The notes beneath the pieces are model-generated. The model saw nothing but the letters and a program-made list of their open reading frames with translations. It was not told where the DNA came from and did not search any database. From Oscillospiraceae bacterium (GTDB lineage: Bacteria > Bacillota > Clostridia > Oscillospirales > Ruminococcaceae), in the NCBI GenBank assembly GCA_017468365.1, contig JAFUIS010000001.1, positions 1 through 64,000 of the forward strand: a stretch of DNA of 64,000 nt, written 5' to 3'. Each line of letters starts with the position of its first letter. Within the stretch, counting starts at the first letter, position 1. Of the stretch, positions 17,875 to 43,358 are shown piece by piece. A program made the translations under genes and the position numbers.

Positions 17875-17970
17875 GCGAATATCTAATTTTGTTCAGATTT
17901 TTTGCAGTTTTGTCAGAAGGGAGGAAAATTTCTCAGCAAAAACAAAATTGCACGATAAAACCGTGCAAAA
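17875..17970 (+). ncRNA. Conserved leader element, copy 1, with covarying hairpin
   Basis: A block of about 55 bases beginning GCGAATATCT, continuing TTTTGTTCAGATTTTTTGC and TTTTGTCAGA, and ending GGGAGGAAAATT is shared with copies at 24873 and 40761. A hairpin follows (TGCACG 17949-17954 with CGTGCA 17962-17967). The stem sequence differs between copies while pairing is kept. The GGGAGG is not followed by a start codon. It lies between promoter and c-di-GMP riboswitch. Confidence 0.5.
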
Positions 17971-17971
17971 C

Positions 17972-17999
17972 TATTCATTGAATTTTTTAAAAATGAATA
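17972..17999 (+). promoter_or_regulatory. Possible antiterminator or switching stem before the riboswitch
   Basis: TATTCATT (17972-17979) pairs with AATGAATA (17992-17999). The 3' strand contains GAATA, which could alternatively pair with GTATTTC (18085-18091) just after the aptamer, next to a U run. The same arrangement recurs at 40859-40886. This suggests two mutually exclusive structures, but the direction of control is not proven. Confidence 0.35.
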
Positions 18000-18008
18000 C
18001 CTGAAAAA

Positions 18009-18083
18009 GGCAAACCGCTCGAAAGAGCGGGACGCAAAGCAAGGGACCTAAAGCATCAAAGATGCCATGGCCGCCCGGCTGCC
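18009..18083 (+). promoter_or_regulatory. Cyclic di-GMP-I riboswitch (GEMM-I), copy 1
   Basis: The aptamer shows the class I consensus: GGCAAACC, a short hairpin capped by GAAA, GGGACGCAAAGC, GGACCTAA, a second variable hairpin (GCATC with GATGC), ATGGCCGCC and closing GGCTGCC. The GAAA tetraloop and the C-rich receptor helix are in place. It lies 52 bases before the start of the thioester adhesin gene. A U run follows the closing strand, so control by premature termination is likely. Confidence 0.93.
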
Positions 18084-18134
18084 AGTATTTCACTTTTTTA
18101 CTATATATCGTTTATGGAAAAGGGGTAGAAATAT

Positions 18135-20399
18135 ATGGCAAACACTATCAGAAAGATTTTTGCAATGATCCTCGCAGTAACACTTTGCGTTGGAATGGCC
18201 CCTAGCGCATTGGCTGCGGTAATTACAGAAACCGAAGAAGAAGTTGACGGCGGAATGACCACCGTCATCACCACTACAACCGAAACAACTGAAGATGGCA
18301 ATACTACCACAGTAACCGTTACTGTGAAAACCGAAAAGGACGGCGTTGATGACGACGGCGCAATCGTCGATTATGACGAAACCAAAGTCACCACCACCAA
18401 AACCACCGAAAGCGATGTTGATACCGTAGTTACCGAAAAGGTCGTTACCGACGGTACCGAGATTAAAGATTACAAAGATCTCGACGTTGAAATCGGCGAT
18501 AAAGTTCCCACCGGTGCGGTAACCGCAAAACCCGGCGAAAAACAGTCCGAAGATTTCCACGGTGAATTCACCGAAACCGAAGGCGACACCACCACTACAA
18601 ACATCGTTGACCGCACTGTTGACCTTGAGGTAACCGAAGAAATGGTCACCGAAAAGAAAGATGGTACCGAGAATCTCGTAAGCATCATGCCCGATGATTA
18701 CGAAGGCAAAAAAGGTACTTCCTACGGAAGCAGAGATCTCGGTGAAATGGGAACCGCCCCCTACACTTACGGAAACTATTGGGATGAGTACTGGGAAGAA
18801 GCTTCCAAAGTACCGCAGCCCGATGATTCGGATTACGTTTATCAGTTCACCGGTATCCACGAGATCGGACAGGATCCTTACCGCGTAAACGTATGGAAGG
18901 TCGAATATGAAACCGATCCCGAAACCGGCGAAGTGATTTTTGACGATGAAGGAAAACCGGTAATCAAGAAATTGCTTGCGGTCGGTCCCAACGGCAGTGT
19001 TTATACAAGTCATGCAGCGAAAGGATATCCGACCCAGGTACAGAGTTTTATCCTTACCAAGTATGGTGAGGAAGGCGAAAAAGACCGTTACCTTACCTAC
19101 TGTATCGATAAAAACACTCTTGTTGCTGACGGACATTGGTACAGCATCTCGAACCTTGAGGACAGCGACTATTATCCCGATGAAGCATCTGCCGAACATC
19201 TCCGCGGAATAGCACTTAACGGTTATTGGGCAACCGAAGAAGGACTCGGTTCCATTCCCTACATTCAGGAAAAAATGCGTGCCGCTTACGGCGAAGATGA
19301 AACCATCACCGTAACCGATAAAAACGGCAAAGAGCAGACTTATAACATTCACGAACTTATCGATGATCTTTGCGAAGGCGAAGCACTCGGCTGCACCCAG
19401 GCTGCTATTTGGTCTTATTCCAACGGCGCACTCGATGTACAGACCGGTAAAAACAACGTTCTTGTAAATGATAATTTCAGTTATGCACTTACAAATAACA
19501 AAGACGCTGAAGTCGGCGCAAGAAGCCTTGCAAGAATGCGTGCAATGTATTACTGGCTCCTCGATATCACCGAAGGTAAATCCGAAGATACTACCACCGT
19601 TATCAATGAAAAGAACTTCGTAGATGAAGTTTCCCTCACTGTCGGTGAAAAAGTCGACGAAGTTACCGTCGTTGAGGATGACGTTGAAAAAACCAACGGA
19701 GTCTATGAGACCCAGCTCAACTTCACTCTTGCATTTGCACCTGCAAACAATGATGACCTCATTGTCTGCCTCAAATATTACGATTTTGAGGGAATTGAAC
19801 AGACCGTCGTAAGACGTCTTTCCGGTGCAGCAGCAGAGGGCGAAACTTATATCACCCAGAATGCAGACGGAAGTTACACTTTCGAAGGACTTAAACTCAG
19901 CGAAAACCGCGAGTTTGACTTCAAACTTAACCTCCACGGAACCCAGAACCTCAAACAGGGCGTATATGTTTATTCTCCCTACGGCGGTTCTACCGAATCC
20001 CAGACCATGGTTGGTATTGCAAGCGGCAGCAGAGAAGTTGATGTCACTGCAGCAATGAGCATCAGTTTCAGCGTAGAAGAGAAGAAAGACGTTCATATCG
20101 AACGCGTATGGCACGAAGATAACGATCCCACTATCTATATCCTTAAAGATAAAGATACTGAGGAAATCGAAGAAGAGGAAATTCCTCTTGATCCCGTACC
20201 GTACAACCTTCAGCCTACTCCTCCGGCAGAAAAACTCGACGTTCCGTCCGAAACCGAGACCATTCTTGATGAAGACGTTCCGCTCGCAGCTGTTCCCGGA
20301 CTTGGCGATGAATCTTATAGCTGGCTTATGATCGCTGCATTTGCAGGAATCGGATTTGTAGCACTTAACCTCCCTGAGAAAAAACGCGAAGAAAACTGA
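18135..20399 (+). CDS. Thioester-domain surface adhesin (TQxA type), paralogue 1
   Basis: 754 residues. A signal peptide (about 1-27) is followed by a Thr-rich segment (about 30-160) shared with the other paralogues. The thioester domain has Cys323 in TYCIDKN and Gln422 in CTQAAIW, the pair expected to form an internal Cys-Gln thioester that bonds covalently to host or matrix amines. A beta domain (about 490-650) runs from NEKNF to QTMVGIASG. The C-terminus is ETILDEDVPLAAVPGLGDES, a hydrophobic stretch and KKREEN: a sortase-type sorting signal with an unusual PGLGD core. ATG follows AAAAGGGG. Translation sits under a c-di-GMP-I riboswitch. Target and direction of regulation are unknown. Confidence 0.9.
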   Translation: MANTIRKIFAMILAVTLCVGMAPSALAAVITETEEEVDGGMTTVITTTTETTEDGNTTTVTVTVKTEKDGVDDDGAIVDYDETKVTTTKTTESDVDTVVTEKVVTDGTEIKDYKDLDVEIGDKVPTGAVTAKPGEKQSEDFHGEFTETEGDTTTTNIVDRTVDLEVTEEMVTEKKDGTENLVSIMPDDYEGKKGTSYGSRDLGEMGTAPYTYGNYWDEYWEEASKVPQPDDSDYVYQFTGIHEIGQDPYRVNVWKVEYETDPETGEVIFDDEGKPVIKKLLAVGPNGSVYTSHAAKGYPTQVQSFILTKYGEEGEKDRYLTYCIDKNTLVADGHWYSISNLEDSDYYPDEASAEHLRGIALNGYWATEEGLGSIPYIQEKMRAAYGEDETITVTDKNGKEQTYNIHELIDDLCEGEALGCTQAAIWSYSNGALDVQTGKNNVLVNDNFSYALTNNKDAEVGARSLARMRAMYYWLLDITEGKSEDTTTVINEKNFVDEVSLTVGEKVDEVTVVEDDVEKTNGVYETQLNFTLAFAPANNDDLIVCLKYYDFEGIEQTVVRRLSGAAAEGETYITQNADGSYTFEGLKLSENREFDFKLNLHGTQNLKQGVYVYSPYGGSTESQTMVGIASGSREVDVTAAMSISFSVEEKKDVHIERVWHEDNDPTIYILKDKDTEEIEEEEIPLDPVPYNLQPTPPAEKLDVPSETETILDEDVPLAAVPGLGDESYSWLMIAAFAGIGFVALNLPEKKREEN

Positions 20400-20490
20400 A
20401 CTGCAAAAAAAGAGAAACCTGATTTGCAAAATCAGCGCACCTGATTGGCAAAACCAAGTAAACTGATCTGCAAAATTAAGATACTCAAAA
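20400..20490 (+). repeat. 3' untranslated repeats of CTGATYTGCAAAA type
   Basis: Short imperfect repeats of CTGAT-TGCAAAAT follow the stop codon; a related stretch follows the last paralogue at 43359-43440. They look like relics of gene duplication; no function is evident. Confidence 0.35.
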
Positions 20491-20494
20491 CTCA

Positions 20495-20535: not shown

Positions 20536-20631
20536 TTTAAAATTTTAGAGCCAACCAACCCGAAACCCAGTCAGAATTGCGGGGAAGTATTCATATTTCC
20601 GTAATTTTGAAAAAATGGGATACTCGAAAAA

Positions 20632-20706
20632 GGCAAACCGTTCGAAAGGGCGGGACGCAAAGCAAGGGACCTAAGGCGAAAAATTCGCTATGGCTGCCCG
20701 GCCGCC
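20632..20706 (+). promoter_or_regulatory. Cyclic di-GMP-I riboswitch (GEMM-I), copy 2
   Basis: Consensus elements are GGCAAACC, hairpin with GAAA loop, GGGACGCAAAGC, GGACCTAA, GGCGAA with TTCGC, ATGGCTGCC and GGCCGCC. A U run follows within 15 bases. It lies 54 bases before the acidic repeat protein gene. Confidence 0.92.
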
Positions 20707-20759
20707 GGTATTTCACTTTTTTGACTATAATTGAAATTGTAGAAAAGAGGTAGAAATAT

Positions 20760-21938
20760 ATGGCAAACTTTGTAAAAAAATTCTTTTCAGTACTTCTTGC
20801 AGTATGTCTCTGTGTCGGGATGGCTCCCCAGGCATTCGCAGGTAACGGCCAGACCAAAGTTCACATCAGCAATGTTGAGGCAATGGGAGACAACAATAAC
20901 AGTGTCACCATTTCTTTCAAAATAACCGATGAAAACGGTCAGGAAAAAATTGCAACCTATACCGGTACTATCAAAGGCGGAAAACTGGTAATCGACATGA
21001 AAACCACCGAAAACTATTTTGATTTTACCGAAGGCGCAATTTCCGCTACCTATAAGAATAATACTACCAATGAAGAAGGCATCTTCTCCATTGGCGGTAA
21101 AGAAGGTAACGATACCGCACACGGCGGCAAAGAGCAGGACAAAGGTCTGAATAACTTCGACGCACTCAACGTTGTTCCCAACGGCGGCGAAATCGACGAC
21201 GACGAAATCGACGACGACGGCGAAACCGACGGTGACGAAACCGACGACGATGACGAAACCGATGACGGTGACGAAACCGACGGTGACGAAACCGACGACG
21301 ATGGCGAAACCGACGACGAAACCGACGATGAGACCGACGACGAGACCGACGACGAAACCGACGACGAAACCGACGACGAAACCGACGATGGTGACGAAAC
21401 CGACGACGATGACGAAACCGACGACGATGACGAAACCGATGACGATGGCGAAACCGATGACGATGGCGAAACCGACGACGATGGCGAAACCGACGACGAT
21501 GGCGAAACCGACGACGATGACGAAACCGACGACGATGGCGAAACCGACGACGATGACGAAACCGACGACGATGACGAAACCGACGACGGTGACGAAACCG
21601 ACGACGGTGACGAAACCGACGAAAACAACGACGGAATCGAAGTACAGAAAATCGACGATGATGAAGTCGAAGAAAACAATGACGGAATCGAAGTACAGAA
21701 AATTGACGATGATGAAACCGAAAAGGAAAGCATTGTCGTTTCCGTTGACCTTAACGGTCCTTCCAACCGTCCCGCAGAAAGATATGATCTTTCTGAAACC
21801 GTAACCATTCTTGATGAAGAAATTCCGCTCGCAGACGTTCCCGAACTCGGCGATGATTCTTCCGAATGGCTCATGGTTATCGTTTTTGCGGCAATCGGCT
21901 TTGTTGCACTTAATCTCTCTGAGAAAAAACGTGCATAA
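20760..21938 (+). CDS. Sortase-type surface protein with extreme Asp/Glu/Thr repeat stalk
   Basis: 392 residues. Signal peptide to about residue 27 (MAPQAFA). A small beta-like domain (about 30-120) differs from the thioester domain; no Cys-Gln pair is present. Residues about 142-290 are almost entirely Asp, Glu, Thr and Gly in a repeating DETDDD/DETDDG pattern with no basic residues. Two near-identical NNDGIEVQKIDDDE units follow. The C-terminus ETVTILDEEIPLADVPELGD, hydrophobic segment, then KKRA is the same type of sorting signal as in the adhesins. It has its own c-di-GMP-I riboswitch. The repeat could be an extended or calcium-binding stalk; this is inference. The coding repeat is likely unstable in length. 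Confidence 0.85.
   Translation: MANFVKKFFSVLLAVCLCVGMAPQAFAGNGQTKVHISNVEAMGDNNNSVTISFKITDENGQEKIATYTGTIKGGKLVIDMKTTENYFDFTEGAISATYKNNTTNEEGIFSIGGKEGNDTAHGGKEQDKGLNNFDALNVVPNGGEIDDDEIDDDGETDGDETDDDDETDDGDETDGDETDDDGETDDETDDETDDETDDETDDETDDETDDGDETDDDDETDDDDETDDDGETDDDGETDDDGETDDDGETDDDDETDDDGETDDDDETDDDDETDDGDETDDGDETDENNDGIEVQKIDDDEVEENNDGIEVQKIDDDETEKESIVVSVDLNGPSNRPAERYDLSETVTILDEEIPLADVPELGDDSSEWLMVIVFAAIGFVALNLSEKKRA
21187..21625 (+). repeat. Tandem coding repeat, Asp/Glu/Thr
   Basis: Degenerate tandem units built on GACGAAACCGACGACGAT (18 bases), with shorter 12-base GACGAAACCGAC units at about 21316-21390, encode DETDDD, DETDDG and DETD. Such repeats change copy number easily by slippage or recombination, so stalk length may vary between strains. 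Confidence 0.85.
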
Positions 21939-22015
21939 AACCGGGCTGAAAAAACAAAAAGACAAATTGTGTGCTGTATCGCACATAAAATTCAGTAAAA
22001 TGAATACCTGAAAAA

Positions 22016-22091
22016 GGCAAACCGTCCGAAAGGGCGGGACGCAAAGCAAGGGACCTAAGGCGGAAAAGTCCGCTATGGCTGCCCGGCTGCC
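22016..22091 (+). promoter_or_regulatory. Cyclic di-GMP-I riboswitch (GEMM-I), copy 3
   Basis: All class I elements are present (GGCAAACC, GAAA loop, GGGACGCAAAGC, GGACCTAA, GGCGG with CCGC, ATGGCTGCC, GGCTGCC). It lies only 78 bases after the stop of the acidic repeat protein, with no clear terminator or promoter between, so it may be an intercistronic riboswitch on a transcript from copy 2. ATTCA/TGAAT pairing just before it matches the switching stem seen at other copies. Confidence 0.93.
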
Positions 22092-22141
22092 AAGTATTTC
22101 GCTTTTAACTATATAAATTTATAGAAAGAGGTAGAAATATT

Positions 22142-24661
22142 ATGGCAAACACTATGAAAAAATTTGTGGCAATCGTTCTCTCTCTTTGTCTCGGAATGAG
22201 CATGGGCCTTCAGGCAATTGCTGCAACCACCACCGAAACCGAAACTAAAACCACGGTTGAAGGCGGAATCACCACTATTGTAACCACTACCACCGAAACC
22301 ACCACCGAAGATGGATACACCAAGGTTGTTATTACTGTAAAAACCGAAAAAGAAGGTGTTGACGAAAACGGCGTTTCTGTCAAATCTGAAGAAACCAGAA
22401 CCGACACCATTATCGAAGAAAACGAAACCACCTCTGAACAGTGGAAAGTTGAAGGCGAAGAAACCAAATGGGAAAAAGACCCGGAACAGACCGAAGACGA
22501 CAGCAACGAAGCTGACCAGCCCAAAGTTGAAGTTGACCTTGTTCCCGGAGATAAAACCGTTGGTTTTGGCGGCGAAGTTGTAACCGGTTCCAACACTGAA
22601 ACCGATGAAAACGGCGTTACCACCACCGAAACCACTTCCACCGCTGACCGCGTTGTTGAAGCAGAAACTTCCGAAATCGTTACCGAAAGCACCGCAGTAA
22701 GCTCCGATATGCATTCCAACATCGACATCGGTCTTGATTACAGCATGTCTGGTAATAATCTTGAAAAAGATATTGCCCGCTGGGATTACCACGTTGCAGT
22801 TGACGAAGACGGCAATTTTGTTAAACACTTTACCGGCACTTCCGCTCTGATGAACAGCCTTAATAACGGCGAATACGGTTTTTACTGGTTCGGCGCAAAA
22901 CCTCTCAGCTCTTCCAGATATTTTGACGGTGTTACCAACGAAAACGGCGAACTTATGCTTGTTCCCCGTTATGAAAGAACTGAAGAAGAGATGACCGATT
23001 GGCTCAAATCCAGCCCTTATTACAGATATGACGCTGCAAAAGGCCTTTGGGTACCTACCCAGACTTCTGCTTCCAAACCGAACATTGCAGAAAACGGCGA
23101 TAACTGGCAGTTTGCATTCTCCGGTTATGCAGGAATCAGCAGCTATGGCATGCTTGTTGACCATGACGGCGAAATAACCTGGAACCAGCGCTATTACGAT
23201 AGCGACGGCGACGGCGACGAAGAACTCGCATGGGAACCCATCAACAACGGCCGTGTAGTAGATAAAGAAGGAAACGTATTCTATGTATACTGCATCGACG
23301 CAGATACCGGCACTCTCACCGGTGACAAATACGTTATCGATAACATCCAGGACGTTGACTATTTCACCGGCACTGAAGAAGAACAGCAGCAGAAAAAAGA
23401 CCAGGTTCGCGCAATTGCACTTAACGGCTTCTGGGGCAACACTGTTGAGGGCGGCGTTGGCAACCTCGATACCATTAAAGCAGACCTTATCAAATTCCTT
23501 GAAGAAACCGACAGCTTCACTTTCGCCTATACCGATCCTTCCAACTACATGGGCGGCGAAGCAGCTCTTGAAGACAGAACTTTCACTGTTGAAGACAGAG
23601 AAGAAATGATCAAACTCGTTGAACTTCTTGACGAAGGCGGCGCACTTGCAGTAACCCAGAGCGCACTTTGGGAATACGGTAACCGCGGAGAAAACGACCC
23701 TGTTCTTGTTTATGACAGAGTAGGCGCAAGTGGTAACCCTGAAGTTAACTATGTTCTTGCTCTTTACAGAGCGTATCTCCTCAGCGATGAGCTCAGAGAA
23801 CAGACCACCGAAGAATCCACCACCGTTCTCGACAGCAATTCTTTCATTGCAGAAGACAGCCTTAAACTCACCGTTGGTGATAAAGTTCCGGAACTTGACG
23901 TAAACAATGACGAAGATGACACTAACGACGTTTACAGCAACGACCTCAGCTTCTCTCTTGTTATCGTTCCCGGCGAAAAAGACGACCTTGTAATCACCCT
24001 TGTTGATAATAACGGCAAAGTAATCCGCAAAGCTCGTATTGCAGGCGATCCTTCCGAAGACGATGAATCTTTCGGCGGCGAATTCACCAATGTTGGCGGC
24101 GTTTATACCTTTGTCGGCGTTCCTATGGCAGAAGGTTCCGACATTAAATTCGACCTTAAACTCGAAGGTATTCAGTACCTTGAAGAAGGCGTTTACGTTT
24201 ACAAATCCGTAAACGAAGAAGGTGAAGAAGACTTTGGTCACAGACAGACCCTTGTTGGTGTTGCTGAAGGCGAACGCGAAGTTGACGTTGAATCTTCCTT
24301 CACTCTCAATTTCACCGTTGATGAAGAAAGCCACATCGTAACCCGCAAAACCTGGTTCGGCGAAGGAGACTCCTCTGAAGAAGATCCCGAAGATCCCGAA
24401 GACCCCGAAGATCCCGAAGATCCCGAAGATCCTTATGAACCCACCGTCATCGACGATGACCCCACCCCTCTCGACAACAATCCTCCCGCAGAAAAACTCG
24501 ATGTTCCTTCCGACACCGAAACTATTCTCGATGAGGACGTTCCGCTCGCAGAAGTTCCAGGACTCGGCGACGAATCTTCCAATTGGCTCATGATCGCTGT
24601 ATTTGCAGCAATCGGCTTTGTTGCACTCAATCTCTCCGAGAAAAAACGTGCCGAAGACTGA
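22142..24661 (+). CDS. Thioester-domain surface adhesin, paralogue 2
   Basis: 839 residues, the longest of the riboswitch-controlled set. Signal peptide to about 27 and a Thr-rich N-terminal segment like that of the paralogues. The thioester domain has Cys384 in VYCIDADTG and Gln506 in VTQSALW; the 122-residue spacing is longer than in paralogue 1 because of an insertion. The shared beta domain (about 560-720) runs to RQTLVGVAEG. A six-fold Pro-Glu-Asp repeat (about 749-764) forms a rigid spacer before the sorting signal EDVPLAEVPGLGDES, hydrophobic helix and KKRAED. ATG follows AAGAGG. It probably forms a covalent-bonding adhesin anchored by a sortase; its ligand is unknown. Confidence 0.9.
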   Translation: MANTMKKFVAIVLSLCLGMSMGLQAIAATTTETETKTTVEGGITTIVTTTTETTTEDGYTKVVITVKTEKEGVDENGVSVKSEETRTDTIIEENETTSEQWKVEGEETKWEKDPEQTEDDSNEADQPKVEVDLVPGDKTVGFGGEVVTGSNTETDENGVTTTETTSTADRVVEAETSEIVTESTAVSSDMHSNIDIGLDYSMSGNNLEKDIARWDYHVAVDEDGNFVKHFTGTSALMNSLNNGEYGFYWFGAKPLSSSRYFDGVTNENGELMLVPRYERTEEEMTDWLKSSPYYRYDAAKGLWVPTQTSASKPNIAENGDNWQFAFSGYAGISSYGMLVDHDGEITWNQRYYDSDGDGDEELAWEPINNGRVVDKEGNVFYVYCIDADTGTLTGDKYVIDNIQDVDYFTGTEEEQQQKKDQVRAIALNGFWGNTVEGGVGNLDTIKADLIKFLEETDSFTFAYTDPSNYMGGEAALEDRTFTVEDREEMIKLVELLDEGGALAVTQSALWEYGNRGENDPVLVYDRVGASGNPEVNYVLALYRAYLLSDELREQTTEESTTVLDSNSFIAEDSLKLTVGDKVPELDVNNDEDDTNDVYSNDLSFSLVIVPGEKDDLVITLVDNNGKVIRKARIAGDPSEDDESFGGEFTNVGGVYTFVGVPMAEGSDIKFDLKLEGIQYLEEGVYVYKSVNEEGEEDFGHRQTLVGVAEGEREVDVESSFTLNFTVDEESHIVTRKTWFGEGDSSEEDPEDPEDPEDPEDPEDPYEPTVIDDDPTPLDNNPPAEKLDVPSDTETILDEDVPLAEVPGLGDESSNWLMIAVFAAIGFVALNLSEKKRAED
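24382..24432 (+). repeat. Short tandem coding repeat, Pro-Glu-Asp
   Basis: Nine-base units of the type GATCCCGAA repeat about six times and encode EDP, a typical wall-spanning spacer just before the sorting signal of paralogue 2. Confidence 0.7.
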
Positions 24662-24863: not shown

Positions 24864-24872
24864 GAAACACAA

Positions 24873-24960
24873 GCGAATATCTAGTTTTGTTCAGATTTTT
24901 GCAGTTTTGTCAGAGGGAGGAAAATTCAAAAAACAAAAAAACGCGTGATAAATCACGCAA
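24873..24960 (+). ncRNA. Conserved leader element, copy 2, with covarying hairpin
   Basis: It starts GCGAATATCTAGTTTTGTTC, continues with TTTTGTCAGAGGGAGG and ends in a hairpin GCGTGA (24943-24948) with TCACGC (24953-24958). Compared with copies 1 and 3 the stem bases have changed on both sides while pairing is preserved. Confidence 0.5.
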
Positions 24961-24997
24961 AACCATTTTTTAAAACCAAAAAACAGATATTGAAAAG

Positions 24998-25073
24998 GGC
25001 AAACCGCCTGAAAGGACGGGACGCAAAGCAAGGGGCCTAAAGCATTAAAAAATGCCATGGCTGCCCGGCTGCC
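24998..25073 (+). promoter_or_regulatory. Cyclic di-GMP-I riboswitch (GEMM-I), copy 4
   Basis: GGCAAACC, hairpin with GAAA-type loop, GGGACGCAAAGC, GGGCCTAA, GCATT with AATGC, ATGGCTGCC and GGCTGCC, followed by a U run. It lies 49 bases before paralogue 3. Confidence 0.93.
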
Positions 25074-25121
25074 AGTATTTCACTTTTTACTATATATATT
25101 ATGGAAAAGGGGTAGAAATAT

Positions 25122-27323: not shown

Positions 27324-27354
27324 ACTTAAAAATTAAATAACGCTCAAAACTCAT

Positions 27355-27394
27355 AAAGAGCCGAAGTTTTTATAACTTCGGCTCTTTATTTTTA
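27355..27394 (+). terminator. Rho-independent terminator of paralogue 3
   Basis: AAAGAGCCGAAGTT pairs with AACTTCGGCTCTTT, followed by a T-rich run. Confidence 0.9.
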
Positions 27395-27396: not shown

Positions 27397-27425
27397 TTGA
27401 ATAATGTTATACTTTATTATATATA
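27397..27425 (+). promoter_or_regulatory. Promoter of the lipoprotein/pilus operon
   Basis: TTGAAT, a 17-base spacer and TATATA, about 42 bases before the lipoprotein start. No riboswitch lies here. Confidence 0.5.
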
Positions 27426-27466
27426 GGGTATTTTTGCCTAAATGTGTCGAAAAAGGAGAATTTGCC

Positions 27467-29780: not shown

Positions 29781-30097
29781 TTGATTTGAGAAAAAAAGGA
29801 ATAACAGGTTTTCTGTCCGTGTTCGGTGCGCCCATTGCCGCAATGGCGGTGCTCGCTTGCTTCCTTTATGGAATCACAAACCTTTCCGAAGGAAATTCCG
29901 ATGAAGGAAAGCGGCGCCTTGAAGAAGCTCTTCACAGAGCCGCCGTGGCTTGCTATGCTGCCGAAGGAATTTATCCTCCAAGCTGGAACTATCTTGAAGA
30001 CCATTACGGTGTCCAGATCGACCACGACCGCTATGTAATAAGCTACTGCGTCTTTGCGGAAAATCTGATGCCCGATATAACGGTAATTGAAAAATGA
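29777..30097 (+). CDS. Pilin-like membrane protein 1
   Basis: 106 residues, starting at GTG overlapping the pilC stop (a TTG nine bases later is an alternative). A single N-terminal hydrophobic helix (about 9-35) is followed by a short soluble domain with two Cys. It resembles a small pseudopilin in layout, but lacks a clear prepilin peptidase site (GFxxxE). Assigned by position in a pilus-like operon and by shape. Confidence 0.6.
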   Translation: MIDLRKKGITGFLSVFGAPIAAMAVLACFLYGITNLSEGNSDEGKRRLEEALHRAAVACYAAEGIYPPSWNYLEDHYGVQIDHDRYVISYCVFAENLMPDITVIEK

Positions 30098-31399: not shown

Positions 31400-31438
31400 C
31401 CCTATAACAATAATCAGCAAAAAATGGCAGGTGCTTTT

Positions 31439-35081: not shown

Positions 35082-36702
35082 TGATAAGATCCCCCTTTCC
35101 GTCAAGCATATGGCAGCTCAGAAGGTCGCTGATGTCGCAGCTTTCGGGGTTCATGGCCCTTATCTTTCTGCCGAATTTCTTTTCATAAAGGTCAAAAGTT
35201 CCGCATTTAAGAAGAGTTATCTTGAGCGGGTCAACTCCGAGAATGTTTTTAAGGTCCTCGTAATCCTGGTCAAGATAGCGGAAATAAATTCCAAGCTGGT
35301 CCTGAAGAATGCGGATGCTGATAGCGCTGTTTACAAGGCTGCTGTGCTGCATCTCAACGTAAAGATGCATGTAAGGACGGTAATCCTCGGTAAATTCCTT
35401 TTTTGCAGTCCATGCGGCAACCGGAAGTCTTGAAAGCTGGATAGCCTGGTTAACGGATTTTTCGGTAATGCGGGTGAAACCTGCAATATCAATGACCTGG
35501 GGAACCCTGTCCACAAACTGGAAGCGGGGAATATTGTTGTTTTCCTTGTTGCTTCCGATTCCGATGCAGCGGAAAACGTCGCCAACACGGTAACGGGCAA
35601 AAGCGCCGCCCTTGAAAACGGTAAGAACAAGCTCATAAATTCCGCCGGGAACAACTTCGTTCCAAAGAATGGTACGGGGCTGATAGGAAGGATCCGCCAT
35701 GTTTCTTTCAAGCTCGTCCTCGGGAATGAACTCATAAAAACAAGCGTCCGGGAAGAAATACATCGCCTCACGGTTCCAGGTTTCGCAGCCGATACAGGTG
35801 GGTTCGGTGCCGGCAAAAAGTTCCATGGGAGCAACGCCCCACATCTTTTCAAGGTCGGTTTTGTAACAGCGGTTGTCGGTACCGGCGCACATGAATCCTT
35901 TAAGATGGAAAAGGTCTTTGGGCAAAAGTTCGCGGTTTTCTTTTTTGCATCTGTTTTTCGCCATAAGATAGCGAAGCATCATCTTAGGAGAAACACCGGG
36001 AAGCTTTCCTCCGGAACTTTTTCCGCCGGACTGCATCGAAGTGATGCTCTGGCTTACGTAATAAAGAACGCTTCCGAGACCGAAGAAGAATTCGATGCCC
36101 TTTTCCATGCCAAGCTTGAAGCCCTGTTTGTTGCGCTCTTTAAAAGTCATGCTGATGCTTTCTTTTACCGGCGGAAGGATCTCGATATCTATCTCCTCGT
36201 CAAAAAGAAGGGGAAGAAGACCGGTAAGATAGGGAAGCGGAGCAAGAGCATAAAGCATATGGTCGGTTACGTTTACGTCAAAGTCATATTTGCGCCGGCT
36301 GGTCGAAAGAACAAGACAGCTCATAACGTTATGTCTGAAAGTGTCAAGCATCGCTTTGGTATAAGGCGCGGTCTTGATGGGATGAACGCCGCCTTCCCAG
36401 GTGGTCTGGATCCAAAGCACCGGTTCACCCGGAAGAGCACTCGCCTGCTTTGCAAGAAGAACGGGAGCATAATCTTCATAGGTGGTAAGCGGTACCATTT
36501 CGCGGAATTCGTCGATGGTGTGGGGATATTTTCCTTTAAGAATGCTCTGACCGAGTTCGCTTGAGCTCCAAAGTTCCATCTGTTCAAGCAAAAGTCTGTT
36601 TTGCACGTCCATGAACTCTTTGCTGCTCATGTTCAGAAAGCCGCAATATTCTTCCCATATTTCTTCTTTGGAATACTGGTGAAGCTTTTCCTGAAATCTC
36701 AT
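35068..36702 (-). CDS. GH3-family acyl-adenylate (acyl-amido synthetase-like) enzyme
   Basis: 544 residues, typical GH3 size. The adenylation motifs of GH3 proteins are visible: TTWEGGVHPIKTAPYTKAM (nucleotide loop), ALAPLPYLTGLLP, YRVGDVFRCIG (motif with Asp for ATP) and FVDRVPQVIDIAGFTRITEK (hinge to the C-terminal domain). In plants GH3 enzymes join acyl acids to amino acids; bacterial members are little studied. ATG overlaps the stop of the methyltransferase-like gene (GGAGG upstream), and the 3' end overlaps the HD-GYP gene, so it is firmly inside a c-di-GMP operon. Substrate unknown; it might make a lipid-linked or diffusible acyl product. Confidence 0.85.
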   Translation of the reverse strand: MRFQEKLHQYSKEEIWEEYCGFLNMSSKEFMDVQNRLLLEQMELWSSSELGQSILKGKYPHTIDEFREMVPLTTYEDYAPVLLAKQASALPGEPVLWIQTTWEGGVHPIKTAPYTKAMLDTFRHNVMSCLVLSTSRRKYDFDVNVTDHMLYALAPLPYLTGLLPLLFDEEIDIEILPPVKESISMTFKERNKQGFKLGMEKGIEFFFGLGSVLYYVSQSITSMQSGGKSSGGKLPGVSPKMMLRYLMAKNRCKKENRELLPKDLFHLKGFMCAGTDNRCYKTDLEKMWGVAPMELFAGTEPTCIGCETWNREAMYFFPDACFYEFIPEDELERNMADPSYQPRTILWNEVVPGGIYELVLTVFKGGAFARYRVGDVFRCIGIGSNKENNNIPRFQFVDRVPQVIDIAGFTRITEKSVNQAIQLSRLPVAAWTAKKEFTEDYRPYMHLYVEMQHSSLVNSAISIRILQDQLGIYFRYLDQDYEDLKNILGVDPLKITLLKCGTFDLYEKKFGRKIRAMNPESCDISDLLSCHMLDGKGDLINDWL

Positions 36703-37286
36703 TGATCATCCTCCTTGCTGTCGGAATTTAAAAGGGTCTTTAATGCCCTTTTTGTGCTTTTGATATTCGGTATCAAAAAAGGCACCCTTTTGCGGTATTG
36801 CCCGTAATCCGAAAAGGTCTTCATAAAAGTGACCCTGTCCTGAAAACAGGCATAAAGAAAATTCAAAAACGAAAAAATCATTCCGTTTAAAAGCATTTTT
36901 TCCGGCAAAGCCGCAAGCCCAAGAAAAAGATAAGTTCCGAAAAAGAACAAAATTCCCGGATGACGGCAAAGCGCATATGCGCCCCGGTCATAAACTTTGT
37001 GCTCGTCCAAAAGAACGTAGGTCTTTTCAAAAGGAAGAGCAAAAAACAAACAGTAAATAAGCACCCCAAGGTTCAGGATCCCCAAAAGGATAAGAACCGT
37101 GTCGCATATTCCCGAAAAAGCTCCGTTTTTAACGGCATAAAAAACGTCAAGCCCCGCCGAAACAAGAAGCATCGCCATTCCAATGCCGAAAAACCGGTGC
37201 AAAAATCGGTTTTTGTGCGTAAAGCTGTTCACGTCATAAACAAAGAACAACCCAAAGGCGCATATTCCCAAAACAAGAGAAACCAT
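36699..37286 (-). CDS. Isoprenylcysteine carboxyl methyltransferase-like membrane protein
   Basis: 195 residues with about five hydrophobic helices. The C-terminal part has the family signature YDRGAYALCRHPG (the xYxxxRHPxY region), a following helix, a Q/F-rich loop and VPFLIP, as in ICMT/phospholipid methyltransferase-like proteins of bacteria. Members methylate carboxyl groups or lipids using S-adenosylmethionine; the bacterial substrate is usually unknown. ATG follows GGAGG. It lies 15 bases after the GGDEF gene and shares ATGA with the GH3 gene, so the two may act on one small or lipid molecule. Confidence 0.75.
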   Translation of the reverse strand: MVSLVLGICAFGLFFVYDVNSFTHKNRFLHRFFGIGMAMLLVSAGLDVFYAVKNGAFSGICDTVLILLGILNLGVLIYCLFFALPFEKTYVLLDEHKVYDRGAYALCRHPGILFFFGTYLFLGLAALPEKMLLNGMIFSFLNFLYACFQDRVTFMKTFSDYGQYRKRVPFLIPNIKSTKRALKTLLNSDSKEDDQ

Positions 37287-37301: not shown

Positions 37302-39614
37302 TCATCTTTCGCCGCGTTTTTTGGGTTCAAAGTCGGCCATATCCATTCCTTCTTTAAAGAATGCAAAGCGGCTGACCTCGCCGTATTTTACGGAATACAT
37401 GGCGCAGTCGGCGGATTCGATAAGATGCTGATAATCAAAACCGTCGTCCGGAACAAGCGCAACGCCGATGCTGAGCGCAAGCTGACGTTCGATGTTTCCG
37501 TTGCGATAAGGATATTTGAAGCAGCTGCAAAGATGCAAAAGTCTCTTTTCAATATCCTCGCGGCTGATGCCGTTTACGAAGACAACAAATTCGTCGCCGC
37601 CGTAACGGGCAACAACGTCGGAATGACGGAACTCGCTGAGGAAGCGCTTGGAAACGTAACAAAGAACGTCGTCGCCGACGGTATGACCGAGAGTGTCGTT
37701 GATGGTTTTGAAGTCGTTGACGTCAATATAAACCATAGCGCCCTGGGTGATTTTTTTGTTTTCAAGCCAGTCGCCGACGGTCTGCTCAAAATATTCTCTG
37801 TTGTAAAGACCGGTAAGGGGGTCGCGGTGTGCTTTTTCCTGCCAGCGTTTTACTTCCTTTTTCCAAAGGTCCTTGTTAACAAGGGTGCCGGCAATGGTCG
37901 CGTTTCCGCCGGGCTGAACAGAAACCCTGTGAAGATGCGCTTCAAGCCATTCGTAACGTCCTTCACCGGTGCAGAAACGAACGGTGCCCTCTTCTTTTCC
38001 GCCGTTTTCACGGCATCTTGCAAGCATGCGCAAAAAGTCTTTTCTGTCGTTTTCGTGAACAAGCGCGGATTTTTCAAAAAGTGCATAGGCGTTCTGGTGG
38101 TTTATCTCACCGCCGAGAGCGGGCGAGAAGCAATCGGAAAATACCGCCGCGTTGTCTGCAGTGGAATAAGAGAACATGATAACTCCTTCGGAGTCGTCGG
38201 GACCGCCTCTTCCGGAAGAAACCTTTTCGTTGTCAACAAAAGCAAGTTCTTTTCCGGTGTAAGCGGTGTTTCTGAATTCTTCGGCGCTCATGGGACTAAA
38301 GAAGAAAAATCCCTGTGCACTGTCGCAGCCGGCCTGCTGAAGAAAACGCACCTGGCTTTTATTCTCAATTCCGTCGGCGGAAGATGCTATCTGCATCTGG
38401 GAAGCATATTTAAAAATTCCTTCCGCAAGAAAACGGTTGCGTCGGTCGTTATGTTCAATGCTGAAAAAGTCTTTGTCAAGTTTAACGGAATCCGCGCCCT
38501 GAACTCTTATAAGGTCAAGGGGAAGGGCGTCTTTTCCAAAGCCGTCAAAAGCGCATCTGAAACCCGCGGAATGTATCTTTTCAACAAGCTTGCAGACGGT
38601 CTCGGGATTTTTGAGCACCGTTTTTTCATCAAGCTCGATTTCGATAAGCTTCGGCTCAACGCCGTATTTCTGACAAACGTCGGAAAAATCCCTGATGATG
38701 CCGCGGCTGCAAAGAGTGCCGTAAGTGATATTCATGGAAACGGGGCAGGGCATAAGTCCTTCCAAAGTCCATTCGGAAATTTTGCGGCAGACAAATTCAA
38801 AAAGGAATCTGTCAAGTTTTTCGGAAAGCCGGTATTCTTCAAAAACCGGAACGAAAGATGCAGGACAAAGAAGTCCGTCTTTGGGGTGGCGCCAATGCAA
38901 AATGGCTTCCGCACCGTTTATGCGCCCGTCGGTAAGCGAAACTTTCGGCTGAAAATAAACAACAAAGTCGCCGTCCTCAAAGGATTTGTCCATATAATTT
39001 ACATATTCCCATTTTTTTGCGGCGATTTCGCCGCTGCCGCTGCAAAAGAAAACGGAAGAATCGGATTTTTCGGTATCGCCAAAAGCATTTTCGGATTTTT
39101 CGATAAGGCTTTCGCAAGGTTCTTTTTCTGCTTCGGAAAGATAAACACCGAATTTAAGGTCAAGAACGTAAGGGGATTCTTTTCCCGCGTTGAAAGCATT
39201 TACTTTTTCGGAAAACCAGCCGAGCCTTGTGGAAATATCGCTTTCGGAGCGGTTTTTGATGAACATGAAAAAAGTTCCGCCGTATGTTCTTCCAAAAGGC
39301 TCAAAAGCACCAAGGTTTGCTTTCACCGTTTTTTCGACATAAGCAAGAGCCTTTTCGGAATCTTCGTTTCCGAAGGTGGAGATCATCTGCTCATAATTCA
39401 TAAGCTTCATGGTGACCGCGGCGTATTTAAGTCTTTCCTTTTCGGAAATGCTTTTTATTTCAGATAAAATTCCGCTGTAATTAAGCCCGCCGGTAACTTT
39501 GTCGGTAAGGGTGCCGCGTTTTGATTTTTTAAGCTTTTGCGCAAGAACACCAACTGCCGCAAAAAGAAGCAGACAAAGCGCAAAAACTATAAAGATGATC
39601 GTTTTTTCTGTCAT
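37302..39614 (-). CDS. Membrane diguanylate cyclase: degenerate GGDEF, degenerate EAL, PAS, active GGDEF
   Basis: 770 residues. One membrane helix (5-26). A first GGDEF-like domain (about 45-190) has only YGGTFF at its signature. An EAL-like domain (about 205-450) keeps Glu236 (EAIL) and KLD (378-380) but has DGFG (357-360) instead of DDFG, so hydrolysis is doubtful. A PAS/PAC-like region (about 500-600) follows. The C-terminal GGDEF domain is intact (RYGGDEF, 672-676) with an RxxD inhibition site (RHSD, 663-666), so c-di-GMP synthesis with product feedback is expected. ATG follows GAGGAAAA. First gene of the four-gene minus-strand operon, divergent from the sortase gene. Confidence 0.93.
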   Translation of the reverse strand: MTEKTIIFIVFALCLLLFAAVGVLAQKLKKSKRGTLTDKVTGGLNYSGILSEIKSISEKERLKYAAVTMKLMNYEQMISTFGNEDSEKALAYVEKTVKANLGAFEPFGRTYGGTFFMFIKNRSESDISTRLGWFSEKVNAFNAGKESPYVLDLKFGVYLSEAEKEPCESLIEKSENAFGDTEKSDSSVFFCSGSGEIAAKKWEYVNYMDKSFEDGDFVVYFQPKVSLTDGRINGAEAILHWRHPKDGLLCPASFVPVFEEYRLSEKLDRFLFEFVCRKISEWTLEGLMPCPVSMNITYGTLCSRGIIRDFSDVCQKYGVEPKLIEIELDEKTVLKNPETVCKLVEKIHSAGFRCAFDGFGKDALPLDLIRVQGADSVKLDKDFFSIEHNDRRNRFLAEGIFKYASQMQIASSADGIENKSQVRFLQQAGCDSAQGFFFFSPMSAEEFRNTAYTGKELAFVDNEKVSSGRGGPDDSEGVIMFSYSTADNAAVFSDCFSPALGGEINHQNAYALFEKSALVHENDRKDFLRMLARCRENGGKEEGTVRFCTGEGRYEWLEAHLHRVSVQPGGNATIAGTLVNKDLWKKEVKRWQEKAHRDPLTGLYNREYFEQTVGDWLENKKITQGAMVYIDVNDFKTINDTLGHTVGDDVLCYVSKRFLSEFRHSDVVARYGGDEFVVFVNGISREDIEKRLLHLCSCFKYPYRNGNIERQLALSIGVALVPDDGFDYQHLIESADCAMYSVKYGEVSRFAFFKEGMDMADFEPKKRGER

Positions 39615-39782: not shown

Positions 39783-40586
39783 ATGAAATTAACTTCAAAA
39801 AAGATACTTAATATTTTATTTATCGCCGCTCTTGCGGTGGGCGTCATCTTTTACGGAAAAAGCCTTAATGAAAAAGAAGTCGGCGCCCGCGAAAGCGAAG
39901 AAGCAAAAGAAATCGTTTTGGCAAACCGCGAAGAAATATCCGCCGAAAAGGAAGAATTCATCACCGGTTCAAAAAAACCTCCGGTATATGACAGCGTTGT
40001 CGAAGAACTTATAACCCTCGATATTGATGCCCTTCGTGAGGTGAACCCAGAAGTTATCGGCTGGATATATATCCCGAATACCAATATCGATTATCCGGTG
40101 CTCCAGCATGAGGACAACCAGTATTACCTCAAATATACCTGGGAACATACCCGCAACAACATCGGCGCGGTGTTCCTTGACTGTGAAACCTCCGTCGATC
40201 TCTCGGATTTCAACACTCTTGTTTACGGCCACAGGATCAACAACAAGACCATGTTCGGTTCCCTTTATAAGTTCCTTGAAAAAGAATATTTCGATGCCCA
40301 TCCGAGCATCTATCTCGTCACCGACGAAGGCGTTTTTCGCTACGATATTTTCGCTTCGTACCAGACCGGACTTGAAACCATTTCTTTCGCAATGAAGATC
40401 GAAACCGAAAAGAAACGCAAAGAATTCATCAACTTCGCCCTTGACTATGCGGTACAGTCCACCGGCTATGTTCCCAAAACCGACGAACAGTTCCTCACCC
40501 TTGCAACCTGCTCTTTTAACGACACTTACCGCGATGTTGTCCAGGCGGTGCTCAACGAAGAAGCCTCCGTAAGGTTCGACCAATAA
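39783..40586 (+). CDS. srtB: Class B sortase
   Basis: 267 residues. An N-terminal signal anchor (about 6-25) places the catalytic domain outside. The catalytic triad is readable: His150 in LVYGHRI, Cys243 in TLATCSF, Arg250 in DTYRD. The TLxTC context and length fit class B. It cleaves a sorting motif and links the protein to peptidoglycan or to a pilin. ATG follows AGGAGG. No other sortase is in the window, so it is the obvious candidate to anchor the nearby proteins with the PGLGD/PELGD signal. It is divergent from the c-di-GMP operon and directly upstream of adhesin paralogue 4. Confidence 0.92.
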   Translation: MKLTSKKILNILFIAALAVGVIFYGKSLNEKEVGARESEEAKEIVLANREEISAEKEEFITGSKKPPVYDSVVEELITLDIDALREVNPEVIGWIYIPNTNIDYPVLQHEDNQYYLKYTWEHTRNNIGAVFLDCETSVDLSDFNTLVYGHRINNKTMFGSLYKFLEKEYFDAHPSIYLVTDEGVFRYDIFASYQTGLETISFAMKIETEKKRKEFINFALDYAVQSTGYVPKTDEQFLTLATCSFNDTYRDVVQAVLNEEASVRFDQ

Positions 40587-40733: not shown

Positions 40734-40760
40734 TTTACTTTCTGCTAATATAAAAAATGA

Positions 40761-40858
40761 GCAAATATCTTAATTTTGTTCAGATCTTTTTGCAGTTTTG
40801 TCAGAGGGGAGGAAATTTTCTCAAAAAAGCAACCGCTGCGCGATAAACCCGCGCAAAA
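40761..40858 (+). ncRNA. Conserved leader element, copy 3, with covarying hairpin
   Basis: It starts GCAAATATCTTAATTTTGTTC, continues with TTTTGTCAGAGGGGAGG and ends with hairpin TGCGCG (40837-40842) and CGCGCA (40850-40855). A promoter (TTGCTT, 17 bases, TAATAT) ends just before it. As at the other copies, the riboswitch follows; here the TATTCATT/AATGAATA stem is also present at 40859-40886. Confidence 0.5.
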
Positions 40859-40895
40859 TATTCATTGAACTTTTTAAAAATGAATACCTGAAAAA

Positions 40896-40971
40896 GGCAA
40901 ACCGTCCGAAAGGGCGGGACGCAAAGCAAGGGACCTAAGGCGGAAAAGTCCGCTATGGCTGCCCGGCTGCC
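40896..40971 (+). promoter_or_regulatory. Cyclic di-GMP-I riboswitch (GEMM-I), copy 5
   Basis: Almost identical to copy 3: GGCAAACC, GAAA-capped hairpin, GGGACGCAAAGC, GGACCTAA, GGCGG with CCGC, ATGGCTGCC, GGCTGCC, then GTATTTC and a U run. It lies 50 bases before paralogue 4. Confidence 0.93.
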
Positions 40972-41021
40972 AGTATTTCACTTTTTTACTATATATTGTT
41001 TATAGAAAGGGGTAGAAATAT

Positions 41022-43358
41022 ATGGCAAACACTATGAAAAAATTTGTAGCAATCCTCATGGCTGCAGTTCTCGGCATGAGCATGGGCCTTCAGGCAATTG
41101 CTGCAACCACCACCGAAACCGAAACAACCACCGACGGCGAGCTTACCACCACCGTCACAACAACAACCGAAACGACCGAAGACGGAAACACCACTACCGT
41201 AGTGGTAACTGTCGAAACCAAAAAGGACGGCATTGATGAAGACGGTGCAACCGTTGATTATGACGAGACCAAAGTCACAACCACCCAAACTTCCGGTGAT
41301 ACCGTAATCTCCGAAAAATGTGTGACTGACGGAAAAGAAAGCCTTAGTTATGATTATACGGAAAAAGTTCCGGACGTTGACGTCGACCTTATCAAAGACG
41401 GAAAAGAAATCGAAAATCCTTCCGGCTCTGCTGAAATAACTCCGGATGCACCTGTTTCTGCGGATCCCAAAGAAGACGAAAACGATACTGAATACGATGA
41501 AACCAAAATCGTTTCCAAAACAGACCGCGAAGTAAATGCAGAAGTTAATATTGTAGAGGTAGAAGATTATAAGATCATCAGGGATAAAGACGGTAATATT
41601 CTTGAAGTATATAAATACGATGAAGAAGAAAATACCGGTCTTGAACCCATTTCTTCCCAGTGGGACGATAACAAACAGGATGTTAAAAAACCTGTCGCAG
41701 GCATGACAGTTGAAGAACTGAAAGCACTGGATGATGCTGGTAAACTTCCGGTAGTGCCTATGACTGAAGAAGAAATTAAAGAGGCTTTAAAAATCAGACC
41801 CGAAGGATATGATTATCTTTATGTCGGTTTGGGCGAAGACAGTTATTACGGTGTTGGCTGGAACTTTGTAAGCGACAATTATTACAACGGCTACGGCACC
41901 GGAACACACCAGTTTGCTTTGGGCGATTTCTCCGAAGAAGAAATGAAACTGATCTCTGCTTACTGTGCAGACCTTGAAACTTCTTCCAGAAAGGGATATT
42001 GGTATACTGTGCAGAATGTAGAGGATGCCGATTACTATGATGAAGAAAGTGCAAAGCACATTCGCACCATTGCTTCCAATGCATACTGGGGCGTAATTGA
42101 CGATCCCGAAACCAAAGAAGCCGAATTCGGAAGCCTTGCAGCTGTCAAAGCTATGATGGCAGAAGCAAAAGATGCCGACGGTAACCCGGTATTTACTGAG
42201 GCACAGATTAACGGTTTGACTGAAGGCGAGGCTTTGACCGCAAGCCAGATGGCTATCTGGAAATACGGCAACCCTTATCAGAAAGAGGACGGCGAAACCA
42301 TTTACATCGATGCGGATACCGTTGATTATAACAGGTATCAGGGCAGATACGATTGGACTTACAGTTCTCAGCATATAAAAGATAACATCAGAGAAAGAAT
42401 CATTGCTGAAAAGCAGCTTGACGTAGAGAATATGACCGAGGAAGAACTCGAGGCTCTCAATAAAATGGTTAGCGATCAGTACAGCACTGAACGCGCAGCA
42501 ATTATGGGCCGCATCAACGCTCTGGCAAATTATCTGATGAATCTGACTCAAACCGATGATCAGAGTGAATCCACTCAGATTATCAATGAGAAGAATTATA
42601 TCGAAGATATGTCCATGACCGTTGGCTCTATGGTTAAAGAAAACGCGGACGGCAACGGCAACAATAGCTATAATGTGGATTTCACATTCTCGCTGGTAGT
42701 TACCCCCGGTGAAAAAGATGACCTTATCATTAAAGTTATTAACAGCAACGGAGAGGTTGTAGGAAGCGGTAGAGTTGCAGGTGACGGAAGTCAGGATGAT
42801 GGCTTTAATGATGTATACTATGACGAAAAAACAGATAGCTACACTTTGACCGGTCTTGAACTTATTGAAGGTTCTGACACCAAATTCAACCTCAAGCTGG
42901 AAGGCGCCCAGTATCTTGAAAGAGGCGTTTATATTTATACTTCCGAAGTCCGCGACGATACTCCTTCCCAGACTTTTGTCGGTATAGCCGAAGGATATAA
43001 GAGCGTTGATACCGCAATGGAAATCGATCTTTCCTTCAACGTTGAAGAAGGCACCGTAACCACTTTGCGCGAATGGCACAGCGAAGGCGATCCTGTTTAC
43101 AGAATCATTGACGGCGACGAAGAATTTGAGGAAGAGGAGATCCCGCTTACTCCCGTTCTTTATAACGCAGAACCCAATCCTCCCGCAGAAAAACTCGATG
43201 TTCCTTCCGACACCGAAACCATTCTTGATGAGGACGTTCCGCTCGCAGCAGTACCCGGACTTGGCGATGAATCTTCCATGTGGCTGATGGTTGCAGTATT
43301 TGCATTCGTTGGTTTTATGGCACTTAACCTCCCTGAGAAAAAACGCGAAGAAGACTGA
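41022..43358 (+). CDS. Thioester-domain surface adhesin, paralogue 4
   Basis: 778 residues with the family layout: signal peptide to about 27, Thr-rich N-terminal segment, thioester domain with Cys315 in AYCADLE and Gln409 in ASQMAIW, the shared beta domain ending QTFVGIAEG, and the sorting signal EDVPLAAVPGLGDES with a hydrophobic helix and KKREED. The C-terminal 115 residues are nearly identical to paralogue 3, also in DNA, suggesting recent recombination. ATG follows AAAGGGG. It sits directly downstream of the class B sortase and has its own riboswitch and leader element. Confidence 0.9.
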   Translation: MANTMKKFVAILMAAVLGMSMGLQAIAATTTETETTTDGELTTTVTTTTETTEDGNTTTVVVTVETKKDGIDEDGATVDYDETKVTTTQTSGDTVISEKCVTDGKESLSYDYTEKVPDVDVDLIKDGKEIENPSGSAEITPDAPVSADPKEDENDTEYDETKIVSKTDREVNAEVNIVEVEDYKIIRDKDGNILEVYKYDEEENTGLEPISSQWDDNKQDVKKPVAGMTVEELKALDDAGKLPVVPMTEEEIKEALKIRPEGYDYLYVGLGEDSYYGVGWNFVSDNYYNGYGTGTHQFALGDFSEEEMKLISAYCADLETSSRKGYWYTVQNVEDADYYDEESAKHIRTIASNAYWGVIDDPETKEAEFGSLAAVKAMMAEAKDADGNPVFTEAQINGLTEGEALTASQMAIWKYGNPYQKEDGETIYIDADTVDYNRYQGRYDWTYSSQHIKDNIRERIIAEKQLDVENMTEEELEALNKMVSDQYSTERAAIMGRINALANYLMNLTQTDDQSESTQIINEKNYIEDMSMTVGSMVKENADGNGNNSYNVDFTFSLVVTPGEKDDLIIKVINSNGEVVGSGRVAGDGSQDDGFNDVYYDEKTDSYTLTGLELIEGSDTKFNLKLEGAQYLERGVYIYTSEVRDDTPSQTFVGIAEGYKSVDTAMEIDLSFNVEEGTVTTLREWHSEGDPVYRIIDGDEEFEEEEIPLTPVLYNAEPNPPAEKLDVPSDTETILDEDVPLAAVPGLGDESSMWLMVAVFAFVGFMALNLPEKKREED

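Follow-up and report, generated by a model that had tools for sequence, protein, structure and literature searches.

Surface proteins controlled by riboswitches for cyclic di-GMP (c-di-GMP) are already described. In Clostridioides difficile, three papers place two sortase substrates, CD2831 and CD3246, under class II ON switches as single genes at separate loci, list one thioester domain protein (CD3246 is given as thioester-type), describe class I riboswitches as mostly OFF, and put type IV pili likewise under c-di-GMP (PMC6200980, PMC6366702, PMC11477304). In Bacillus thuringiensis, the cell-wall-anchored adhesin gene cap (cbpA) is under a class I riboswitch, the Bc2 RNA (PMC4933901, PMC7423583), which is an ON switch that acts on one gene through an anti-terminator (PMC4933901). 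The stretch described here is 64,000 nucleotides of contig JAFUIS010000001.1 from an Oscillospiraceae bacterium (assembly GCA_017468365.1), and the whole of it is called the window. Like the systems above, it has predicted c-di-GMP riboswitches ahead of putative sortase-type surface proteins. It differs from C. difficile in that five class I units are grouped in a single island, which also encodes a predicted synthase, phosphodiesterase, and sortase. Unlike B. thuringiensis, it has five genes, no terminator-like site in the linkers, and a hairpin over the start codon. Its TED-type proteins share the [YFL]C motif, a candidate bond-forming Gln, and a sortase-like C terminus with the streptococcal and Bacillus TIE adhesins SfbI and BaTIE (motif definitions from PMC4450167 and PMC6194298).

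The locus is probably a chromosomal island in which a c-di-GMP attachment circuit with ON-switched adhesins is nearly complete. A GGDEF protein would make c-di-GMP, the HD-GYP protein encoded in the island would degrade it, as would an EAL protein encoded outside the island, and five class I riboswitches would read it. The output would be five surface proteins, four of them with thioester domains (TEDs), probably anchored by the neighboring sortase. The novelty is the near-complete writer-eraser-reader-output circuit in one island; riboswitch-run adhesins are themselves known. Among the best-ranked papers of the open full-text literature, none was seen to describe all of these parts together at one locus, and PMC11477304 was the only open full-text paper matched jointly on thioester domain, riboswitch, and c-di-GMP. 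The original prediction had proposed a c-di-GMP-driven attachment switch. As a surface-protein switch this is well supported by sequence (aptamers, GGDEF, HD-GYP, sortase, hairpins), and the whole reading is supported in part; the synthase, phosphodiesterase, sortase, and island boundaries were absent from that account.

Class I aptamers and their surface proteins

A cmscan search of the window with RF01051 (c-di-GMP-I; gathering threshold 35 bits, model length 1-87) found exactly five aptamers, all on the + strand, over threshold, and matched across the full model 1-87, which confirms the five full class I aptamers proposed originally. They lie at 17999-18086 (80.7 bits), 20622-20709 (76.5 bits), 22006-22094 (80.8 bits), 24988-25076 (79.2 bits), and 40886-40974 (79.9 bits), with E-values from 3e-13 to 2.7e-14. 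No sixth site was found in the organism's own genome (G000; 1.86 Mb, 33 contigs, 97.8% complete, 2.8% contaminated), where scoring covered 150 of the 276 first-look candidates. The distance from the end of the aptamer model to the ATG is 48, 50, 47, 45, and 47 nt in units 1 to 5. The short spacing claimed earlier therefore stands, at 45-50 nt rather than 49-54, a figure that depends on where the aptamer is taken to end. For each aptamer, no other family of the clan ranks above RF01051, and the first position of GGCAAACC is G in all five. This G is presumably G20, a c-di-GMP-type base.

The five riboswitch-led open reading frames (ORFs), all on the + strand, encode secreted-type proteins of 754, 392, 839, 733, and 778 amino acids (aa). 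Four of them match the TED family PF08341 over the Pfam cut-off of 22 bits: TED protein 1 (18135-20399, 24.9 bits), TED protein 2 (22142-24661, 25.4 bits), TED protein 3 (25122-27323, 30.8 bits), and TED protein 4 (41022-43358, 27.3 bits). The 392-aa protein (20760-21938) is an acidic repeat protein with no TED match, and it has a signal peptide and a C-terminal signal as in the other four. The set of five related secreted proteins, four TED-type and one acidic, is thus as first proposed. All five C termini read DE(D/E)(V/I)PLAxVPxLGD, followed by a hydrophobic stretch and EKKR, and a layout of signal peptide, C-terminal motif, hydrophobic stretch, and positive tail is seen by eye in each. By its sequence, this shared signal is similar to an LPXTG sorting signal, but its VPxLGD departs from the canonical motif.

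An alignment of seven TEDs, namely the four above, one more from the window, and two that are distantly related, has an invariant YC dipeptide (7/7). A Gln ahead of [TN][FML][VI], itself preceded by S or R, is also invariant (7/7) and is the candidate thioester-bond residue. A separate motif, TQXX-Phi-W, no longer has its Gln in TED3. According to two reports, that Gln is not bond-forming and is non-essential, and the idea of TED3 as a dead thioester domain was dropped on this ground (PMC6194298, PMC4450167). The window TED proteins differ from SfbI and BaTIE in their long T/E-rich N-terminal region and in a thioester bond that is so far a candidate; no solved TED was matched by sequence at E<=1, and a PDB search with the TED profile gave three unrelated weak matches (E 0.09). 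No homologue of TED4 was found in plasmid and phage collections. A scan of genome contigs with TED4 found two distant TED loci, with RF01051 in neither.

The extra TED protein of the window (12622-15519, - strand) has an N-terminal part that looks SGNH-hydrolase-like by eye. As read, it stops directly after NPNTGAD and so lacks a membrane anchor. A strong hairpin lies ahead of its start, and the cmscan of the window found no RF01051 aptamer there. Riboswitch control thus does not extend to all TED genes of the locus, and the claim that riboswitches control the whole adhesin family holds for the five units and fails for this gene.

The leaders of the units are 76-91% identical to one another and the coding DNA 47-62%. 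The control region appears to be conserved, or homogenized by gene conversion, while the adhesins diverge. A further leader element (TTTTGTTCAGA...GCAGTTTTGTCAGA) with a covarying hairpin was identified by sequence comparison ahead of aptamer 1 (17875-17978, + strand). The element recurs ahead of aptamers 4 and 5 (24875-24960 and 40768-40860), about 100 nt upstream of the aptamer. Within the window, GCAGTTTTGTCAGA is exact only in units 1, 4, and 5; with up to two mismatches it has five matches, three of them in these units, where 0.58 would be expected. A longer leader pattern matched unit 1 only, owing to length differences. The hairpin, found ahead of aptamers 1, 3, 4, and 5, has two-sided changes in three of its five pairs and is paired in 20/20 cells; 9 of 500 shuffles do equally well.

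A start-codon hairpin as predicted expression platform

Each linker folds into a long hairpin that takes in the Shine-Dalgarno (SD) sequence and the start codon. The hairpins lie on the + strand at 18079-18142 (-21.7 kcal/mol, z -5.90), 20702-20767 (-21.7 kcal/mol, z -5.34), 22087-22150 (-21.3 kcal/mol, z -5.59), 25069-25129 (-19.3 kcal/mol, z -4.61), and 40967-41029 (-21.8 kcal/mol, z -6.77). Folding spanned the last aptamer bases to codon 3, and none of 200 shuffles was equally stable in any of the five leaders. In the stem, an anti-SD strand UAUUUC[AG]CUUUU pairs with the SD strand AAAG[AG]GGUAGAAAUA. At the base, (U)GCC of the aptamer end pairs with GGC(A) of AUG-GCA. By what we take to be the Vc2 numbering, these aptamer-end Cs include residues that contact the ligand. 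Over the fixed span -50 to +10, the five units have z-scores of -3.36 to -4.21, and the median for 30 other window genes is -0.19 (two of these control rows, o323 and crp, started at a non-start codon).

Competing for the same bases, the folded aptamer and the full SD hairpin are modeled as mutually exclusive, which predicts a translational ON switch. With no ligand, the linker hairpin would bury the SD sequence, AUG-GC would pair with the last aptamer bases, and translation would be low. Once bound c-di-GMP keeps these bases within the folded aptamer, the hairpin would lose its base, the ribosome site would open more easily, and the adhesins would be made. The modeled energy for opening SD to AUG is 15.4, 9.9, 15.2, 13.4, and 16.2 kcal/mol in units 1 to 5 with the aptamer free, and 11.3, 5.6, 11.1, 9.3, and 11.6 kcal/mol with the aptamer enforced. 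The drop of 4.1-4.6 kcal/mol in all five units is the source of the ON prediction; it arises partly by construction, as the bound state is imposed and the constraint bars GCC from pairing with AUG-GC. None of the five linkers has a terminator-like site on the + strand. An extended P1 was rejected as the main switch helix, with shuffles of the 5' flank matching the observed duplex in 20, 3, 89, 14, and 45 of 500 cases (units 1 to 5).

The island and its counterparts in the genus

Judged by its flanks, the set of units lies in a chromosomal island of about 27 kb, from a nagB-like gene on the left (15819-16604, + strand, PF01182) to an M20 peptidase gene on the right (43493-44713, + strand, PF01546). 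The predicted synthase is the protein encoded at 37302-39614 (- strand; PF00990, PF00563), which has a degenerate GGDEF domain, an EAL domain with FDGFG in place of the usual DDFG, and an intact GGDEF domain (37386-37832) with the motif RHSDVVARYGGDEF and an RxxD I-site. The genome has four GGDEF domains, three of them in the island, and only that at 37386-37832 keeps the GG(D/E)EF motif. Within what was searched, this protein is the one plausible c-di-GMP synthase of the genome. The predicted phosphodiesterase (32547-35105, - strand, PF13487 140.8 bits) joins a seven-transmembrane (7TM) region, a degenerate GGDEF domain, and HD-GYP; it keeps HDIGK and GYP and has lost GG(D/E)EF. Between these two genes, on the same strand, lie a GH3-family protein (35068-36702, PF23571/PF03321) and an ICMT-like membrane protein (36699-37286), a weak assignment (PF04140, E 0.043, below cut-off). 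The putative class B-like sortase (39783-40586, + strand) adjoins the fifth riboswitch unit, scores 53.6 bits with PF04203, over cut-off, and has TLATC (the class B motif is TLxTC).

The only RF01051 receptors found in the genome, within what was searched, are those of the island. PilZ had no match in the genome at E<=0.1. The other genomic EAL protein (contig C3) has, by eye, an intact-looking EAL domain and a degenerate GGDEF domain. Adjoining it on that contig is a large secreted-type protein with Big_2 repeats (locus L070, 3577-9967), which has an NPNTG-type signal and no aptamer.

The remaining island genes begin with ORF o323 (16663-17634, - strand), which has an N-terminal hydrophobic stretch, a 48% tblastn match to locus L067, and no Pfam match over cut-off. 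A terminator-like hairpin found by site scan follows TED3 (27353-27389, + strand). After it come, on the + strand, a transglutaminase-like protein (27404-28705, PF01841 84.3 bits; lipobox by eye) and a small type IV filament or type II secretion system (T2SS)-like cluster (28740-32494), with PF00482 (T2SSF), PF16152 (DUF4860), PF00437 (T2SSE), and small ORFs without Pfam match. Control of these genes by riboswitch 4 was considered and set aside; with the hairpin intervening, they are probably not riboswitch-controlled. Outside the island, positions 1-6000 of the window are an AT-rich contig end (34-37% GC, compared with 42-50% elsewhere in the window) with ORFs that look ParA/ParB-like by eye, perhaps the edge of an integrated element.

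The genus set comprised 15 genomes, the organism's own included. GGDEF matches were found in three (G000, G010, G011) and none in the other 12, and TEDs were present in seven. No RF01051 site was detected in the 14 congeners; this is a soft negative, with 21 candidates per genome scored under strict filters. The segment between nagB and M20 is missing at the same site in relatives. In G001, about 60 bp separate the two genes, whose order and orientation match those in the island genome, and the gap holds, by eye, a terminator-like hairpin of one and then promoter-like sequence of the other. In G014, G013, and G003, nagB adjoins an inverted M20, and in G002 and G007 the M20 gene is also inverted, with gaps of 1.1 and 1.9 kb. 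The other eight congeners had no nagB-M20 pair on one contig.

G010 (73% complete) keeps island parts, in pieces that follow the island order: nagB, one extra gene, o323, and TED; diguanylate cyclase, ICMT-like, and GH3; and GH3, HD-GYP, and T2SSE. A nagB tree did not resolve a possible sister relation between G000 and G010. The GH3 gene was found in 18 of 394 genomes, G000 and G010 included, and the gene order ICMT-like, GH3, HD-GYP is kept in all 16 other genomes with it, although the HD-GYP match in G011 is limited to residues 3-473 of the protein. This conserved order suggests that c-di-GMP breakdown is coupled to some step involving a small molecule or lipid. RF01051 was in none of the seven of these 16 loci that were scanned.

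Several results weigh against an ON-switched circuit carried on one island. The SD sequence is mostly paired in both modeled states (probability unpaired 0.01-0.13). With the aptamer enforced, the AUG is freer in four units and less free in unit 3 (0.34 to 0.11). Folding of the aptamer costs 9.8-11.7 kcal/mol before ligand. Because the SD sequence stays paired and this cost must be paid, the ON step would need opening by the ribosome or co-transcriptional folding; in these models, the size of the ON effect is beyond what equilibrium folding alone explains. Only in unit 2 does the extended P1, a helix that would release the SD sequence, stand clearly above shuffles, and 3 of the 30 control genes reach the hairpin strength of the five over -50 to +10. 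The five C termini score 29.7-36.5 bits with the NCBIfam model LPXTG_double (NF033073), under its cut-off of 48, so that the common sorting signal first proposed stands as one motif in all five proteins and not as canonical LPXTG. The sortase scores 152.9 with TIGR03064, under the cut-off of 153.75. The genome-wide receptor search left out degenerate GGDEF/EAL, MshEN, and c-di-GMP-II receptors, as well as HD-GYP elsewhere. No mobility or integrase-like domain was found among the island ORFs scanned with Pfam (attachment repeats were not searched for). In G010, the TED leader has no hairpin (z +1.0) and no aptamer, also in a low-threshold Rfam scan of four contigs, so either the window's lineage acquired riboswitch control of that gene or G010 lost it.

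The last of these results also fits a different history, in which an old locus was lost from most congeners, the link between enzymes and riboswitches is only one of neighborhood, and the enzymes mainly serve other genes, for example those of the type IV filament. G010 has the enzymes and a TED gene with no riboswitch, in all 16 other genomes the ICMT-like, GH3, and HD-GYP genes are located away from TED, T2SS, and sortase genes, and the seven trio loci scanned lack RF01051. We hold this history to be fairly unlikely, as the sole intact GGDEF motif and the sole RF01051 sites found co-occur in the island, where any c-di-GMP made would meet the aptamers. More unlikely still is that the five are OFF switches, with c-di-GMP repressing surface proteins of a motile or dispersing state. 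The mostly OFF class I switches of C. difficile speak for repression, as does an SD sequence that stays paired in the modeled bound state. Against it stand the linkers without a + strand terminator-like site, the competition between aptamer and full SD hairpin, the opening energies that fall in all five units (in part by construction), and the class I Bc2 RNA, which turns an adhesin gene ON. Sensing of another cyclic dinucleotide, 3',3'-cGAMP, is highly improbable. Close relatives of the aptamer class with that ligand are known, but all five aptamers have RF01051 as the top family of the clan and the G that we take to be G20, and a GGDEF protein is encoded within the island (CD-NTases were not searched for). 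An ON-switched attachment circuit thus remains the preferred reading.

Parallels in relatives and meaning of the circuit

RF01051 was found in 54 of 198 genomes searched, the organism's own included. The survey of the other genomes covered 115 of 125 places with RF01051 (nine of those left out are all among the weakest, two of these nine below cut-off, and for one further place no sequence was read), and 12 of the 115 sites had no usable ORF. At 60 of the 103 sites with a downstream ORF, the N terminus was flagged as secreted-or-membrane by a crude, home-made rule that also flags pilin-like and membrane proteins. G044, G040, G160, and G189 each have three or four different flagged secreted-type proteins. 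In G044 (contigs C3, C18, C30, C56) and G040 (C138, C109), class I aptamers precede several secreted-type proteins, as in the window. These two differ from the window in that the aptamers are often in tandem, the linkers carry CUUUGC...GCAAAG arms, and hairpin stability is unremarkable in their seven short linkers (z -0.9 to -0.1). They also differ in their proteins, with no TED in six scanned as partial sequences and a weak MucBP in one (L037, L185, L192, L176, and L210 gave none; L047, L194, and L196 were left out). Riboswitch-run families of secreted proteins recur, then, and what was originally called unusual is not so in kind, given these sets and the C. difficile and B. thuringiensis precedents.

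The start-codon platform likely has parallels as well. At 7 of 28 short-linker sites, the aptamer end pairs with the ribosome site at a probability of at least 0.99. An ATGGC start occurs at 4 of the 28, and three of these (G187, G129, G091) are among the strongly pairing seven, with a probability of 1.00. Their linker hairpins have z-scores of -5.9, -3.3, and -1.8, the last, that of G091, not strong alone. G091 combines a riboswitch, a TED protein (34.8 bits), and the AUGGC pairing; in G129 and G187, the pairing lies ahead of other secreted-type proteins.

c-di-GMP networks often contain many enzymes and receptors, which obscures cause and effect. The parts found in this genome are few and mostly side by side: a single intact GGDEF motif, a small number of phosphodiesterases, and five RNA receptors that are nearly identical, in a genus largely without GGDEF proteins (12 of 15 genomes). 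A tentative and still somewhat doubtful extension is that the island may be a modular, possibly transferable, one-purpose network. It would supply the enzymes that make and degrade c-di-GMP, the RNA receptors, an anchoring enzyme, and adhesins that attach covalently; c-di-GMP would have essentially a single job, and the start codon and c-di-GMP would be rivals for the aptamer end that contacts the ligand. With so few and so clustered parts, a laboratory host could be used to reconstruct how output depends on input. In this locus, moreover, the control region is conserved and the adhesins change fast, and G010, with a positional counterpart of one gene that lacks the switch, offers a natural comparison. 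The AUG-GC pairing, found in three other genera too, is a testable class I platform.

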